The notes beneath the pieces are model-generated. The model was not told the origin of the DNA, made no database searches, and saw nothing but the letters and a program-made list of their open reading frames with translations. Both the position numbers and the translations under genes were made by a program. DNA of 48,510 bases from Acidimicrobiia bacterium (GTDB taxonomy: Bacteria > Actinomycetota > Acidimicrobiia > IMCC26256 > PALSA-610), in contig JADGOO010000107.1 of NCBI GenBank assembly GCA_017882905.1, forward strand, positions 1-48,510, given 5' to 3'. Positions 22,177 through 35,234 of this stretch are shown here, piece by piece. Within the stretch, counting starts at the first letter, position 1. Each line of letters begins with the position of its first letter.

Positions 22177-23292
22177 GTGGACTTCGAGTTCTCCGAAGAA
22201 CAGGAGCAGCTCCGCGACTCCGTGCGCCGCTACCTGGCCGACCGCGCGCCGATCGCGTGGGTGCGCGAACGTTGGGCCGACGCCGCCGATCCGAACGACG
22301 CGGTGTGGAAGGGACTCGCCGCGCTCGGCGTGATGGGTCTGCTCGTCCCCGAGGAGCACGGTGGCGCGGGCATGACGATGGTCGACGCGGCCGTGGTGCT
22401 CGAAGAGCTCGGACGCGCGGTGTTCCCGGGTCCGTACGCGGCGAGCACCATCGGCGCGACGACGCTCATCCTCGCCGCGGGTGACGGCGCCGACCACGCC
22501 GCGCTCCTCCCCGCCTTGGCGGCCGGCGACGAGATCGCGACCGTGGCCGTGTTCGAGCCGGGCCGTCGCTACGACTGGCGCAGCCCTGGCGTGACCGTCG
22601 CCGCCGACGGCTCCCTCACCGGCACCAAAGTGCACGTCCCCCACGGATGCGTCGCTCACCGGTACTTGGTGACGGCGAGCGACGCATCGGGCCTGACCGG
22701 GGTGTACGTGCTCGACGCCGACGCCGAGGGCGTGCACGTCGAGGTCGCCGACACCATCGACGGCGGGCATCCCGAAGCCACGGTCGAGCTCCGCGGCGCC
22801 CATCCGGCACGCCGCCTCGCCGCGACCGGTACCGATGCCCACCTCGCCATCGAGCGCACCTTCGACGCACTCGGCGTCGCGCTCTGCGTCGACGGAGTGG
22901 GGACCGCGGCCCGCGCGCTCGAGCTCTCGGTCGAGTACGCCCAGCAGCGCTACGCCTTCGGGCGACCGATCGGCTCCTTCCAAGCCGTCCAACACCTGTG
23001 CGCCGACATGCTGCGCGCCGTGGAGCTCGCCCGAGCCGCCGGCTACTACGCCTGCTGGGCGCTCGACTCAGCCGAACGCGCCGAAGGGCATCGGGCCGCC
23101 ACCGTCGCCCGTGCCTACTGCGCCGAGTCGCTGCCCCAGCTCGGCGGCACCGCCGTGCAAGTGTTCGCCGGCATCGGCTTCACCTGGGAGCACGACGTGC
23201 ACCTGTACTACAAGCGCCTCGTGCACCTCGGGTACGCGCTCGGCTCCGCCGACGAGCACCTCGCCACGCTCGCGGGGCTCGTGATCGACTGA
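22177..23292 (+). CDS. Acyl-CoA dehydrogenase, beta-type, carrying a palindromic repeat in its coding sequence
   Basis: A 371-residue flavoenzyme-family protein. It begins DFEFSEEQEQLRDSVRRYL and contains LLVPEEHGGAGMT, RYAFGRPIGSFQAVQHLCAD, and the C-terminal QVFAGIGFTWEHDVHLYY typical of the beta chain in heterotetrameric enzymes. It is more diverged in the FAD/substrate loop than the divergent alpha-type gene, consistent with a partner chain. GTG 22177 has GAGG 6 nt upstream; GTG 22171 is an alternative. Codons for about residues 157-171 (HGCVAHRYLVTASDA region) coincide with a copy of the 43-bp palindromic element (22646-22688), without breaking the frame. Confidence 0.85.
   Translation: MDFEFSEEQEQLRDSVRRYLADRAPIAWVRERWADAADPNDAVWKGLAALGVMGLLVPEEHGGAGMTMVDAAVVLEELGRAVFPGPYAASTIGATTLILAAGDGADHAALLPALAAGDEIATVAVFEPGRRYDWRSPGVTVAADGSLTGTKVHVPHGCVAHRYLVTASDASGLTGVYVLDADAEGVHVEVADTIDGGHPEATVELRGAHPARRLAATGTDAHLAIERTFDALGVALCVDGVGTAARALELSVEYAQQRYAFGRPIGSFQAVQHLCADMLRAVELARAAGYYACWALDSAERAEGHRAATVARAYCAESLPQLGGTAVQVFAGIGFTWEHDVHLYYKRLVHLGYALGSADEHLATLAGLVID
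22646..22688 (+). repeat. 43-bp palindromic element, copy A (inside a CDS)
   Basis: The left arm GATGCGTCGCTCACCGG and right arm ACGGCGAGCGACGCATC pair at 15 of 17 positions around a 9-nt loop. The first 15 bases are identical to intergenic copies B and D. It lies within the acyl-CoA dehydrogenase reading frame. Confidence 0.8.
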
Positions 23293-24707: not shown

Positions 24708-24750
24708 GATGCGTCGCTCACCCGGACATTGTGCGGGTGACCGACGCATC
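24708..24750 (+). repeat. 43-bp palindromic element, copy B
   Basis: The left arm GATGCGTCGCTCACCCG and right arm CGGGTGACCGACGCATC pair at 16 of 17 positions around the loop GACATTGTG. It lies at the 5' end of the deacetylase gene and overlaps its possible GTG starts at 24731 and 24737. Confidence 0.88.
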
Positions 24751-25945
24751 GAGGCTGACGGCGGGCGCGGCTGGGGCCGTGCTCGCCGCCGACGTGGCCG
24801 TCGGCCTTGCGAGCAGGGCACCTGGCGGGCTCACCGTCGTGGCGGCCGCTCTGGGCGCGTCGGTGGTGGCCACGGCCCTGCTGTACTCGATCCCCCGCCC
24901 GGCGCTGGCCAAGCTCGGCTTCCTCGTGGCGCTCGTGGCCGCCTGGCTGGTGCCGCAACGACCCGATCTGGGCAGCGCCGCGATCCTGGCGGCCCTGTTC
25001 GGGGCCGGCACGGGGCTGATCGCCGACCGGATCTCGGGCGAGCGGCGCCTCCCCGCCGCAACGGGTGCGCTCGCCATGGTGGCCCTCCTCGTCGTGCTCC
25101 GCCTCGCCGATGCCCGCCCGGCGATCCTCGTCGTGGGCCTGCTTGCGCTGCTCACCGGCACCATTTCCGTATCAGCGGCGCATCGTGGGTCGGGGCGGCG
25201 ACCAGGGGTGAGCGCGGGTGTTGGGATCCCGCTGACGTTGGTCACCGCACTGCTCACGGCCTACTTCGGAGCCAGCACTCCCGCCGCGGGCTGGTTCGGC
25301 GGCGGCGCCATACGCGGGCCGGTCGCCTCGGGGGAGGTCGCGCTCACCTTCGACGACGGACCCGACCTGGTGACCACGCCAGCCGTGATGCGCATCCTCG
25401 ATGCCGACCACATCGCCGGCACGTTCTTCATCGTCGGCAAGGCCCTCGACGCCGGCCCGCAAGAGGTCGCGATCGTCCGGGCCCTCATCGCGCACGGTCA
25501 TCTCATCGGGAACCACTCGTACCATCACGATCAGTGGCGGTGGCTCGACCCCCGCTACCCCGAGCTCGAACGCACCCAACTCGCATTCGCACGCGACATC
25601 GGGGTCTGCCCCGCCTGGTACCGACCACCGCACGGGCAACGCACGCCGTTCATCGCCCGTGTCGTCCACGACCACGGCATGCGCATGGCGATGTGGGACG
25701 ACTCAGCCGGCGACTGGGCGACCCGCGACGCGCACCTCGTGGCGCGTCGCGTCTTGCGTCGCGTGCGATCGGGCTCGATCATCGACCTCCACGACGGCCT
25801 CGACGGCAACCCGCTCGCGGACCGCAGCGTCGTGTCGGCCGCGCTGCCCGAGATCCTCGCGGGTCTGCGTGCCCGTCACCTGCGTCCGGTACGCCTCGAC
25901 GTTCTGCTGGGAGGCAAGTCGTCGATTCCGTGCCCGACCGTGTGA
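24737..25945 (+). CDS. Polysaccharide deacetylase (CE4/NodB) with N-terminal membrane domain
   Basis: About 402 residues. The N-terminal part (to about residue 190) is a string of hydrophobic helices that anchors the enzyme. The NodB domain follows with all motifs: ALTFDDGPD (Asp-Asp), NHSYHHDQW (metal histidines), YRPPHGQRTP, WDDSAGDW and IIDLHDGLDG. It should remove N- or O-acetyl groups from a surface glycan, acting outside the membrane. The start is uncertain: coding bias begins near GTG 24737, which lies in the right arm of palindromic copy B; GTG 24731 and GTG 24779 are alternatives, and none has a strong ribosome site. It converges with the GT2 gene, 19 nt apart. Confidence 0.8.
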   Translation: MTDASRLTAGAAGAVLAADVAVGLASRAPGGLTVVAAALGASVVATALLYSIPRPALAKLGFLVALVAAWLVPQRPDLGSAAILAALFGAGTGLIADRISGERRLPAATGALAMVALLVVLRLADARPAILVVGLLALLTGTISVSAAHRGSGRRPGVSAGVGIPLTLVTALLTAYFGASTPAAGWFGGGAIRGPVASGEVALTFDDGPDLVTTPAVMRILDADHIAGTFFIVGKALDAGPQEVAIVRALIAHGHLIGNHSYHHDQWRWLDPRYPELERTQLAFARDIGVCPAWYRPPHGQRTPFIARVVHDHGMRMAMWDDSAGDWATRDAHLVARRVLRRVRSGSIIDLHDGLDGNPLADRSVVSAALPEILAGLRARHLRPVRLDVLLGGKSSIPCPTV

Positions 25946-28953: not shown

Positions 28954-28996
28954 GATGCGCCGCTCACCCGGACATCTGGCGGGCGCCCAGCGCACC
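28954..28996 (+). repeat. 43-bp palindromic element, copy C (degenerate right arm)
   Basis: The left arm GATGCGCCGCTCACCCG and the first loop bases GACATC match copy B closely. The right arm CGGGCGCCCAGCGCACC keeps 11 of 17 consensus bases. It sits between the divergent DegT and AbiEi/Vsr-like genes. Confidence 0.65.
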
Positions 28997-29048
28997 CGGC
29001 TGCGGGTCCCGGCGCTTCCTGTCACACCCGGCGGGATTGCTGGTCGGT

Positions 29049-29996
29049 ATGCGCCACCTCTGCGAGTTGCATCTTGGCCGTCTCGGCGAAGCCCATTTCG
29101 GCGTCGTCGGGCGGCAGGAACTGCTCGACACCGGGATCAGCCGACACCAGGTGGAGCACCTCGTGCGCACCGGACGGCTCGTGCGCCTGTTCACCTCGGT
29201 GTACCGGTTGGCCGGTTGCCCGACGTCCTCACGCCAGATGCTCTATGCGGCGACCCTCGCCGCTAGGACCTGGGGCGCGGCATCGCATCGCAGCGCCGCC
29301 GCGCTCCATGGCCTGCCCGGTGGAACCGACGAGGTCACCGAGGTCGTAGCGTTCCGCTGGCGACGCAAGGCTGCGACGGCCATCGTGGCCCACGAGACGT
29401 ATCTCGTGGCACCGATCGATTTCACCGTCGTCGACGGCATTCCCGTCACCTCAGTGACGCGCACACTGTGCGACCTCGGGATCTCGGTACGCCTCGGGCA
29501 CATCAGTGCGGCGACCCTCGAAGCCGCCATCGAGGAGGCGATCCGCCGCGGGCAGACGTCGCCGGAACGAATCGGGACGACCTTGGAGCGCCTCGGTGGC
29601 GCCTGGCGGCCGGGCGCCGAACACGTCGAACGTGCACTAAAGCGCTTCCTGCCCGCCATGTCACGAGCCGACAGTCGAGCCGAGGTCGAGCTGGTGCGGA
29701 TCCTGCACGACGCCGGCCATACCGACGTCGTCACGCAGCACCCGGCTCGCGTGAGCCCGAACCTGACCCTGCGTCTCGACACCTACTTGCCCGGGTTGCG
29801 AGTCGCGCCAGAGTTCGACTCGTACCGATACCACGGCGGACGATTGGTGCACTTGCGTGACGCCAACCGATCGATCTTGTTGGCGGGCGTGAAGATCCTT
29901 CGGCTGCCCATCACCGACGACGAGCTCGCCGCCGGATGCCCGACGCTCCTCGCGACCCTTGGCGCGCTGCAAGCCGACCGTGCGCACGCCCCATGA
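29049..29996 (+). CDS. AbiEi-like winged-helix protein with Vsr/DUF559-type endonuclease domain
   Basis: A 315-residue protein. Residues 1-60 resemble the AbiEi N-terminal winged helix (VVGRQELLDTGISRHQVEHL, then GRLVRLFTSVYRLAG). The middle carries SHRSAAALHGLPGG and the TSVTRTLCDLGI segment common to these proteins. The last 90 residues look like a Vsr-type PD-(D/E)xK nuclease: an Asp in LRLDTYLPGLRV, Glu and Asp in APEFDSYRYHG, then RDANRSILLAGVKILRL. Such genes are common in actinobacteria and annotated as type IV antitoxin/DUF559; their role is not established. No AbiEii toxin is adjacent. Copies C and D of the 43-bp element flank the gene at 52 and 14 nt, probably in opposite orientation. 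ATG 29049 has no clear ribosome site. Confidence 0.72.
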   Translation: MRHLCELHLGRLGEAHFGVVGRQELLDTGISRHQVEHLVRTGRLVRLFTSVYRLAGCPTSSRQMLYAATLAARTWGAASHRSAAALHGLPGGTDEVTEVVAFRWRRKAATAIVAHETYLVAPIDFTVVDGIPVTSVTRTLCDLGISVRLGHISAATLEAAIEEAIRRGQTSPERIGTTLERLGGAWRPGAEHVERALKRFLPAMSRADSRAEVELVRILHDAGHTDVVTQHPARVSPNLTLRLDTYLPGLRVAPEFDSYRYHGGRLVHLRDANRSILLAGVKILRLPITDDELAAGCPTLLATLGALQADRAHAP

Positions 29997-30010
29997 CCGC
30001 ATTGGCCATT

Positions 30011-30053
30011 GATGCGTCGCTCACCCGCGTGATCTCCGGGCGAGCGACGCATC
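30011..30053 (-). repeat. 43-bp palindromic element, copy D
   Basis: The arms GATGCGTCGCTCACCCG and CGGGCGAGCGACGCATC pair at 16 of 17 positions around a 9-nt loop. Loop comparison favours the minus orientation (38 of 43 matches to the idealised element against 35). It lies between two convergent genes, where it could also act as a bidirectional terminator. Confidence 0.88.
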
Positions 30054-32503: not shown

Positions 32504-32546
32504 GATGCGTCGTTCACCGTCATGAACGGCTGGGGAGCAGCGCAAC
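32504..32546 (-). repeat. 43-bp palindromic element, copy E (decayed)
   Basis: The left arm GATGCGTCGTTCACCGT is well kept. The right arm CTGGGGAGCAGCGCAAC keeps 12 of 17 consensus bases and forms the last codons of the MaoC gene. Orientation cannot be decided from the loop. Confidence 0.5.
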
Positions 32547-32989: not shown

Positions 32990-33032
32990 GATGCGCCCCT
33001 GACCCGCACAGAGTCCGGCTGAGCGACGCATC
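32990..33032 (-). repeat. 43-bp palindromic element, copy F
   Basis: The arms GATGCGCCCCTGACCCG and CGGCTGAGCGACGCATC pair at 13 of 17 positions; the loop is CACAGAGTC. Read on the minus strand it matches the idealised element at 37 of 43 positions. It lies between the fused acyl-CoA dehydrogenase stop and operator site 5. Confidence 0.78.
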
Positions 33033-33038
33033 ACCTGG

Positions 33039-35234
33039 TCAGGGGTCTCGGGGGAGGCCCAGGAGGCGTTCGGCGATCACGTTCTTTTGGATCTCCGTCG
33101 TGCCGCCGGCGATGGTGAGGCACCGGTTGAACAGGAACGAGGCCACCCACGGTCCCGCGTCGCCGTCGGCGAACACTGCCGCCGGCCCACACAGCTCCAT
33201 GCCGGCCTCCTGCGTGCGTTGGTCGTGCTGCACCCCGAGCAGCTTGCGCACCGCCGCCTCGGAGCCCGACGGGTCGGCTCCGCCGAGCGCGAAGAGCGTG
33301 AGCCGGTAGCCGAGCACGGCGAGGGCATGCGCCGTCACCACGAGCGATCCCCCGGTTTCCAGCGCATGGGGATCGGTGGCGAGGCCGGAGGCATCGAGGA
33401 GCTTGAGGACGCCGGCCACGCCCCCGCCGATCGTCGACGAACCGCCCATGAACACGCGCTCGTTGGCCAGGGTTGTGCGCGCCGCGCGCCAACCGTCGTG
33501 CTCCTTGCCCACGAGGCAGTCGTCGGGGATGAACACGTCGTCGAAGAACACCTCGTTGAACATCGCCTGACCGGTGAGCTCACGCAACGGCCGCGGGTCG
33601 ACGCCCGAGGTGCGCATGTCGAGCATGAAGCACGAGATGCCGTCGTGCTTCGCGGCGTCCGGGTCGGTGCGGGCGAGCAGGATGCCCCAGTCCGCGGTGT
33701 GGGCCATCGTCGACCAAACCTTCTGGCCGTTGACGATCCAGCCGCCGTCGACCCGCTCGGCGCGTGTGGTGAGCGCCGCCAGGTCGCTCCCCGCGCCGGG
33801 TTCGCTGAACAGCTGGCACCAGGTGATCTCGCCTCGCAACGTGGGTGCGATCCACCGCTGCTGCTGTTCGGGCGTGCCGTGCACGATCAGGTTCGGCAAC
33901 GCCCAGGCGCCAACCATGATCGACGGGCGCGCAACCTTCGCCGCCCGGAACTCCTCCTCGATCACCAGCAGCTCGAGCGCTCCGGCACCACGGCCCCACG
34001 GCCGCGGCCACGCAGGCGTGATGTAGCCCTCGTCGACCATGCGAGCGCGTTGTGGCGGGGCGTCGAGCCCGGCGAGCGAGTCGAGGAACGCGCGCACCTC
34101 GGAGCGCAGCACTTCGGCTTCGGGCCCGAGATCGACTGCGAGGCGGCGGCGGGCACCGGCGAGCGCATGTCGGGCGGCTTCGACACGCCACGTCGAAGCC
34201 GTGCCGAGGAGCGCTCGCAGCGCCATTGCGTGACGCAGGTAGATGTGCGCGTCGTGCTCCCACGTGAAGCCGATGCCGCCGAGCACCTGCACGCAGTCTT
34301 TGGCGCACTCGAACGCGGCGTCACCGGCCAGCGCGGCAGCTGCCGCAACGGCGACCGCGCCGCCGTTGTCGCCGTCGTCGACGGCACGAGCCGCGTCCCA
34401 CGCCGCGGCTCGCGCCAGCTCGGTGCGCGCCAGCATGTCGGCGCACTTGTGCTTCACGCCCTGGAACTGACCGATCGGACGGCCGAACTGCACCCGATCG
34501 CGTGCGTACGTTGCAGCCGTGTCGACGCACCATTGCGCGACGCCGACCGCTTCGGCTGCCACCAATGCGGCGATCACGTGGCGTGCCATGGCGTCGTCGA
34601 GCGCCGTGAGCACGAGCGCCGACGCGCCGGTTGCGCGCACCTCACCGCTGCGGCGTACGAGGTCGACGTTGGCATGCGCGACGATCTCGACGGCGTCGGC
34701 GTGCAGCTCGATCGCGCACCAACGCGGTTGCGCATCGCCTTCGATCGCAACCGGCGCGATGAGCACGTCGGCAACCGCCGCGCCCGGCACCGGCGTCAGC
34801 GCGCCCTCGATGACGACCCGCTCCGCTCCGTTGCCGCCTTCGCGCCGGCCGACGAGACCCGCGGCGCACGCGAACGTGCCGATCTGGTCGCCGGCGCTCA
34901 ACGGCTCGAGGTACTGCGCGCCGGCGGCGCCACCGGCGCGTTCGACCAGCGCCGCGGCGACGATCGTCGGGAGCAGTGGTCCGGGTGCACCCGACCGACC
35001 GAACTCCTCGAGCACGACGGCCGCTTCCACGAGGGTTGCTCCCCCACCACCGCCGGCTTCCGACACATGCAAGCCGCACAGTCCCATCGCCGCGACCTGG
35101 TTCCAGAACGCGGGTAGGTCGTCGACATCGCTGTCGAGGCGCGCCCGGGCCACGGACGGCGGGCTCTGTTCGTCGAGGAAGCGGCGCACGCTTCGGCGCA
35201 GCGCTTCGTGGTCGTCGGTGATCCCGATCGGCAT
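33039..35234 (-). CDS. Fused double acyl-CoA dehydrogenase (FadE34-like)
   Basis: A 731-residue protein made of two acyl-CoA dehydrogenase units. Residues 1 to about 365 are beta-like (TDDHEALRRSVRRFLDE, FGRPIGQFQGVKHKCADM, VLGGIGFTWEHDAHIYL). Residues from about 375 are alpha-like (FSEPGAGSDLAALTTRA, VNGQKVWSTMAHTADW, GGTTEIQKNVIAERLLGLPR). This matches the single-chain version of the alpha2-beta2 enzymes, such as mycobacterial FadE34, which acts on CoA-activated steroid side chains. The unfused equivalents lie at 20929 and 22177. It is followed by palindromic copy F and the MaoC operon, consistent with the next steps of one pathway. ATG 35234 is used; no strong ribosome site is seen. Confidence 0.85.
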   Translation of the reverse strand: MPIGITDDHEALRRSVRRFLDEQSPPSVARARLDSDVDDLPAFWNQVAAMGLCGLHVSEAGGGGGATLVEAAVVLEEFGRSGAPGPLLPTIVAAALVERAGGAAGAQYLEPLSAGDQIGTFACAAGLVGRREGGNGAERVVIEGALTPVPGAAVADVLIAPVAIEGDAQPRWCAIELHADAVEIVAHANVDLVRRSGEVRATGASALVLTALDDAMARHVIAALVAAEAVGVAQWCVDTAATYARDRVQFGRPIGQFQGVKHKCADMLARTELARAAAWDAARAVDDGDNGGAVAVAAAAALAGDAAFECAKDCVQVLGGIGFTWEHDAHIYLRHAMALRALLGTASTWRVEAARHALAGARRRLAVDLGPEAEVLRSEVRAFLDSLAGLDAPPQRARMVDEGYITPAWPRPWGRGAGALELLVIEEEFRAAKVARPSIMVGAWALPNLIVHGTPEQQQRWIAPTLRGEITWCQLFSEPGAGSDLAALTTRAERVDGGWIVNGQKVWSTMAHTADWGILLARTDPDAAKHDGISCFMLDMRTSGVDPRPLRELTGQAMFNEVFFDDVFIPDDCLVGKEHDGWRAARTTLANERVFMGGSSTIGGGVAGVLKLLDASGLATDPHALETGGSLVVTAHALAVLGYRLTLFALGGADPSGSEAAVRKLLGVQHDQRTQEAGMELCGPAAVFADGDAGPWVASFLFNRCLTIAGGTTEIQKNVIAERLLGLPRDP

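Follow-up and report, generated by a model that had tools for sequence, protein, structure and literature searches.

AbiEi-type nuclease genes bracketed by their own dispersed repeats in an Acidimicrobiia genome and other Actinomycetota

The nuclease gene and its palindromes

The window analysed here, a stretch of 48,510 nt from an Acidimicrobiia genome (contig JADGOO010000107.1), holds a gene for an AbiEi-type protein that stands between two copies of an imperfect palindrome, with further copies in and around nearby genes (Table 1). The distances given by an earlier, sequence-only reading, 52 nt from copy C to the gene and 14 nt from the gene to copy D, are exact, and its call of C and D as an inverted pair is sound, since the inverted match (21.0, against 15.0 for the direct one) runs on past the palindromes on either side, into CCGCCGCAC. 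The right arm of copy C has decayed and the copy folds no better than its shuffles, whereas the hairpin of copy D is intact and folds better than its shuffles do. The two neighbouring genes, which encode a DegT aminotransferase and a thiolase-like protein, include no AbiEii-like toxin.

Table 1. Features of the nuclease locus and copies of its palindrome family, in window coordinates
Feature	Position	Strand	Evidence
AbiEi-type winged-helix protein, 315 aa, with an assigned C-terminal Vsr-fold / EDxHD-type nuclease domain	29049..29996 (ATG at 29049; TGA ends at 29996)	+	AbiEi_4 E 3.7e-6, motif conservation, profile matches
Copy C, upstream bracketing repeat	28954..28996	+	arms with 1 and 6 mismatches; 53.9 bits, E 1.3e-11; fold z -0.15
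Copy D, downstream bracketing repeat	30011..30053	-	arms with 0 and 1 mismatches; 61.8 bits, E 6.2e-14; fold z -4.9
Copy A, in frame within an acyl-CoA dehydrogenase CDS	22646..22688	+	
Copy B, at the 5' end of a polysaccharide-deacetylase-like ORF or ahead of it	24708..24750	+	69.8 bits
Degenerate copy E, at the 3' terminus of a MaoC-like ORF on the minus strand	32504..32546	+	48.2 bits
Copy F, a short distance upstream of that MaoC-like ORF	32990..33032	+	55.7 bits
Further weak match to the family model, inside a coding region	25140..25186	-	36.4 bits, E 1.7e-6

The arm GATGCGTCGCTCACC occurs 26 times in the window with up to three mismatches, against 7.1 +/- 2.95 times in shuffled sequence, where none of 100 shuffles reached 26; with up to two mismatches it has 63+54 matches in the whole genome, against 4+9 for a reversed-pattern control. 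A covariance model built from 20 aligned 47-nt copies, none of which contains the tetranucleotide GTAG, places the family at 28 distinct places in its own genome of 4.36 Mb, C and D among them and copy B scoring highest, and finds no more than marginal matches in relatives. Six of the 28 places fall within 10.4 kb around the nuclease gene (binomial p about 7e-11); such clustering was seen for one other family and was absent in five further families tested. Chance palindromes are ruled out by the shuffles, by tiled intervals and by shifted controls. RNA structure selected at each copy was likewise considered and set aside, as covariation is not above that of shuffles, and the copies thus behave as decaying copies of DNA. 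Separately, the window contains an inverted similarity between 22957-23208 and 34239-34487 that belongs to two acyl-CoA dehydrogenase paralogues and is unrelated to the palindromes.

Against Pfam, the window protein by itself matches in its AbiEi part only (AbiEi_4) and has no DUF559 or Vsr match, so that the nuclease domain is attributed to it from the family alignment. Among the 30 members of that alignment, E212, E255 and H262 never vary, D244 and D271 hardly vary, and the window protein has all five residues. PADLOC AbiEi models match the N-terminal half of all 30 homologues, while the C-terminal half is matched by REase_MTES_1575 in 20, by DUF559 in 14 and by the Vsr family model in one, at E 0.06. 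Profile comparison with solved structures points to 3hrl, which is endonuclease-like (E 1e-6), to AbiGI (E 0.0006), to AbiEi (6y8q, E 0.0008) and to 3r3p, an endonuclease from a mobile intron (E 0.002). Hhe and other defence models are matched weakly. An AlphaFold model made from three sequences reached a pLDDT of 52, too poor for confirmation of the fold. From motifs and profiles, the gene is assigned as encoding an AbiEi-type DNA-binding half joined to a putative hydrolytic nuclease half of the Vsr fold (EDxHD/DUF559-type). A phage origin of the family was rejected, as no phage record matches it and the six matches among 72,556 plasmid records are by the N-terminal part only.

Bracketing among homologues

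Five homologues, the window gene included, are found in the same genome. One (L032) has near-identical copies of AACCGGCGTTGCGGATACGTCAGGGTGACGTATCCGTCACGCCGGTT on its two sides (L032 1453-1499 and 2507-2553), another (L034) is bracketed by a third repeat, and a fourth repeat pair belongs to L035/L037; four nuclease genes with mutually unrelated repeats are therefore housed within one genome (G000), and the sole homologue there that has no bracketing repeats, L033, is short and without a nuclease domain. A search with the family profile gave 54 matches in 13 of the 14 genomes of the window's taxonomic family, and a contig scan with a profile from a three-row alignment gave three loci only.

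Bracketing was scored as the best local match, direct or inverted, between the 400-nt flanks of a gene. Of 187 gene-sized intervals tiled across the window, the nuclease interval alone scores above 19, a threshold that was picked after the score distributions had been seen. Within the taxonomic family, and setting aside a subfamily with the motif NGRRWH, all 32 intact nuclease-domain genes score above 15 and 29 of them above 19; the corresponding counts above 15 are two of eight for homologues with an in-frame stop and one of five for the NGRRWH subfamily, and none of six AbiEi-only homologues, which have no nuclease domain, is bracketed. Across Actinomycetota, 54 of 89 genes, not all of them independent because several are orthologues, score above 19, against none of 185 intervals shifted by 1000 nt (Fisher p about 1e-33). 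Bracketing is thus restricted to genes that keep the nuclease domain, and the core of the sequence-only reading, a pairing of this type of nuclease with the palindromes, withstood the check put forward with it. Outside the taxonomic family 32 of 47 sampled loci score above 15, a rate that may be inflated for the wider family, the loci being mostly best matches to a profile built chiefly from bracketed genes. A nuclease-type gene is present in 142 of 396 sampled Actinomycetota genomes (102 of 237 genera).

Two kinds of homologue without bracketing stood out. L033, L059, L060, L075 and L077 are AbiEi-only proteins of about 200 aa, the last four of them (from G007-G010) syntenic orthologues of one another. 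L071, L072, L074, L078, L079 and L083 form a subfamily marked by the motif NGRRWHDD, in which in-frame stops are frequent, and contig G005:C124 carries a tandem pair of its genes that are 82% identical.

The upstream copy is often less than 200 nt from the start codon, and downstream copies lie near stop codons, positions that bring two conventional roles to mind. AbiEi antitoxins bind inverted repeats in their own promoter, and the palindromes could accordingly be operators of an AbiEi-like autorepressor, with extra copies acting as regulatory sites at other genes, which would suit the upstream spacing. A copy also follows the stop codon, however, others sit in coding sequences and between other genes, AbiEi-only homologues do without repeats, no promoter-like site was found in the region and the neighbouring genes offer no AbiEii-like toxin; we regard operators as a rather improbable explanation. 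The closeness of downstream copies to stop codons would fit ordinary transcription terminators or insulators of single-gene units, but no terminator-like site was found in the same region, there is no Rfam match, the same sequence stands at both ends of the gene and throughout the genome, and only nuclease-domain genes are bracketed, so that this explanation can hardly be credited.

Private repeats at stationary genes

When 27 bracketing repeats were joined into one query and searched for in the 14 genomes of the taxonomic family, with a limited number of candidates scored per genome and copy numbers therefore being lower bounds, many of them proved to be multi-copy in the genome of their own nuclease, with essentially no matches elsewhere. 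Twelve repeats from eight genomes of other families, some of them complete, were likewise multi-copy at home and essentially private. Each tested repeat family is thus dispersed in the genome of its nuclease and nearly confined to it, and the copies inspected are mostly intergenic.

The bracketing repeats are mostly imperfect palindromes of 40-60 nt; 33 of 59 are significantly palindromic by a simple test and about 44% are not, and the 59 bracketed genes have 34 direct and 25 inverted pairs. Where copies are in tandem they are in direct orientation and spaced 62-78 nt apart (29 of 36 at 70-74), and this period of about 72 nt is common to nine unrelated families. In the family of L211-L220 (G029), the inner part of each arm is one of several alternative segments, among them TGATTAGTG, TAGTTGTTG and TGATAAGTG; the two arms may have matching or differing segments, which suggests that copies have undergone exchange with one another.

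Several nuclease genes are syntenic across genera (G000:C248 with G003:C45, G004:C59 and G011:C121; G002:C7 with G003:C59 and G004:C40; G006:C12 with G007-G010), which indicates that they are vertically inherited and stationary; for the window's own gene, these genomes offer no syntenic counterpart. The syntenic genes keep their locus while the bracketing repeats turn over to unrelated sequence. It had been expected that palindrome and nuclease would co-vary, and the flanks of homologues proved to be bracketed indeed, each pair by its own unrelated repeat, but repeat similarity does not follow protein similarity to a significant degree (Mantel rho 0.055, a value reached in 72 of 500 permutations), though the closest pairs may be an exception. 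Two congeneric genomes differ at one orthologous intergenic position (L142, L159), where G004 has its own repeat and G003 has two copies of another repeat, private to itself. In a comparison of empty sites between these two genomes the orthologous places could be located, and the intergenic DNA was too diverged for junctions to be read.

The repeats might instead be recognition or cleavage sites of a nuclease that does not move them, serving chromosome maintenance, discrimination of self from non-self or a gene-drive-like protection of the locus, with copies accumulating by ordinary recombination. A hydrolytic nuclease with an AbiEi half, its weak matches to Hhe and other defence models and the confinement of each repeat to the genome of its own nuclease are all in keeping with such a role, but it accounts neither for the new repeat families of tens of copies found in each genome nor for the joint change of both flanks at a gene that stays put, and on balance we consider it unlikely, though the least so of the alternatives weighed here.

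Two copies within coding regions bear on how new copies might arise. Nine homologues, about 49-63% identical, agree in length around the site of copy A to within one or two residues, and the residues LVTA encoded by the centre of the copy are native. A second coding-region copy, at L021 1473-1515, falls in a loop of a MidA-type methyltransferase, and two solved homologues are no shorter there. The lack of net insertion at these two sites, as judged from diverged homologues, hints at overwriting rather than insertion, though insertion with a compensating deletion may also account for it.

Relation to REP systems and a possible mechanism

REP-like palindromes occur in many bacteria, and to our knowledge the sole enzyme linked to them is the HUH transposase. 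The system described here shares with REPtrons (REPs together with RAYT/TnpA-REP) the short imperfect palindromes, present in tens of copies per genome, mainly intergenic and in lineage-specific families, as well as a resident enzyme gene that is flanked by its own repeat and behaves as if domesticated and passed on vertically; RAYT genes, too, behave as domesticated genes (PMC8266576). Here, however, the enzyme is an AbiEi protein with a putative Vsr-fold hydrolytic nuclease rather than an HUH Y1 transposase, tandem copies are direct with a 72-nt period, and the window family is without the GTAG tag. The REP transposase domain Y1_Tnp (PF01797) is absent from the window's genome and from 13 of the 14 genomes of the taxonomic family, the only match being a partial one at G006:C23:153418-153648. 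As the defining Y1 transposase is absent and GTAG is missing in the window family, the system resembles REP/RAYT in anatomy but is no member of the REPtrons.

Since TnpA-REP processes REPs in other bacteria (PMC8266576), another enzyme, such as a RAYT or an insertion sequence acting in trans, could conceivably move the palindromes, with the nuclease genes merely tolerating or attracting them. The absence of Y1_Tnp from 13 of the 14 genomes, the window's included, speaks against it, however, and one private repeat family per nuclease gene would not be expected from it; we think this very improbable.

Other known systems share single features with the one described here. The dispersed palindromes recall CGTC-tagged REPs, which differ in that they were reported without a dedicated transposase (PMC3733652). 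The nuclease fold, at profile level, and the E-D-H-D motif recall EDxHD or Vsr-fold homing endonucleases such as 3r3p (I-Bth0305I), but there is no intron or intein here, the brackets belong to a dispersed repeat family, and an AbiEi half is present. AbiE type IV toxin-antitoxin systems have the N-terminal AbiEi winged-helix domain in common with the window protein, but not its extra C-terminal nuclease, and the AbiEii-like toxin is missing from the neighbouring genes. In the open-access literature searched, with few subscription journals or preprints among it, we found no report of an association between such nucleases and repeats.

On present evidence we lean towards the view that gene and palindromes belong together as components of a single REP-like system in which an unrelated hydrolytic nuclease serves as the dedicated enzyme. 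Their association is a matter of observation; that the nuclease drives the spread of the repeats is what we infer from it. Favouring this view are the bracketing of nuclease-domain genes only, the private dispersed families, the several unrelated repeats within G000, the synteny with differing repeats, the shared 72-nt period, the conserved E-D-E-H-D residues, the similarity to 3r3p, the absence of Y1_Tnp from 13 of 14 genomes and the clustering of window copies around the gene. It is weakened by the failure of repeat similarity to track the protein, by the large share of repeats that are not significantly palindromic and by the absence of clustering in five families. The analogy with REPs and RAYTs drawn in the sequence-only reading thus holds in that homologues are bracketed far above controls, each repeat is scattered through the genome of its nuclease and there is no RAYT that would explain these repeats, but the inverted layout and the palindromic form on which it dwelt are not general.

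In such a REP-like system, the nuclease gene would keep its locus through vertical inheritance, with a copy of its own repeat on either side. Its protein would recognise that repeat family, probably as a hairpin or cruciform, and nick or cut there, and repair or replication across the cut would copy the repeat to new sites; as a hydrolytic nuclease cannot join DNA alone, host repair must be assumed. The new copy would be written over its target and not inserted in the manner of a transposase. It is tempting to go further and to suppose that selfish or domesticated repeat systems of one class are widespread in Actinomycetota: a hydrolytic Vsr-fold nuclease, in place of a transposase, would cut target-like sites and repair would overwrite them with the palindrome, by conversion or another templated route without net insertion, and each nuclease gene would have one private family; this we put forward tentatively, as a possibility somewhat less probable than its negation.

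If the REP-like reading is right, an unrelated nuclease, bracketed in most intact cases examined, would occupy the place held by the HUH transposase in REP systems. It would give a testable function to many genes whose present annotation goes no further than AbiEi-family antitoxin domain protein or DUF559, and would offer tens of enzyme-repeat pairs for work on specificity.
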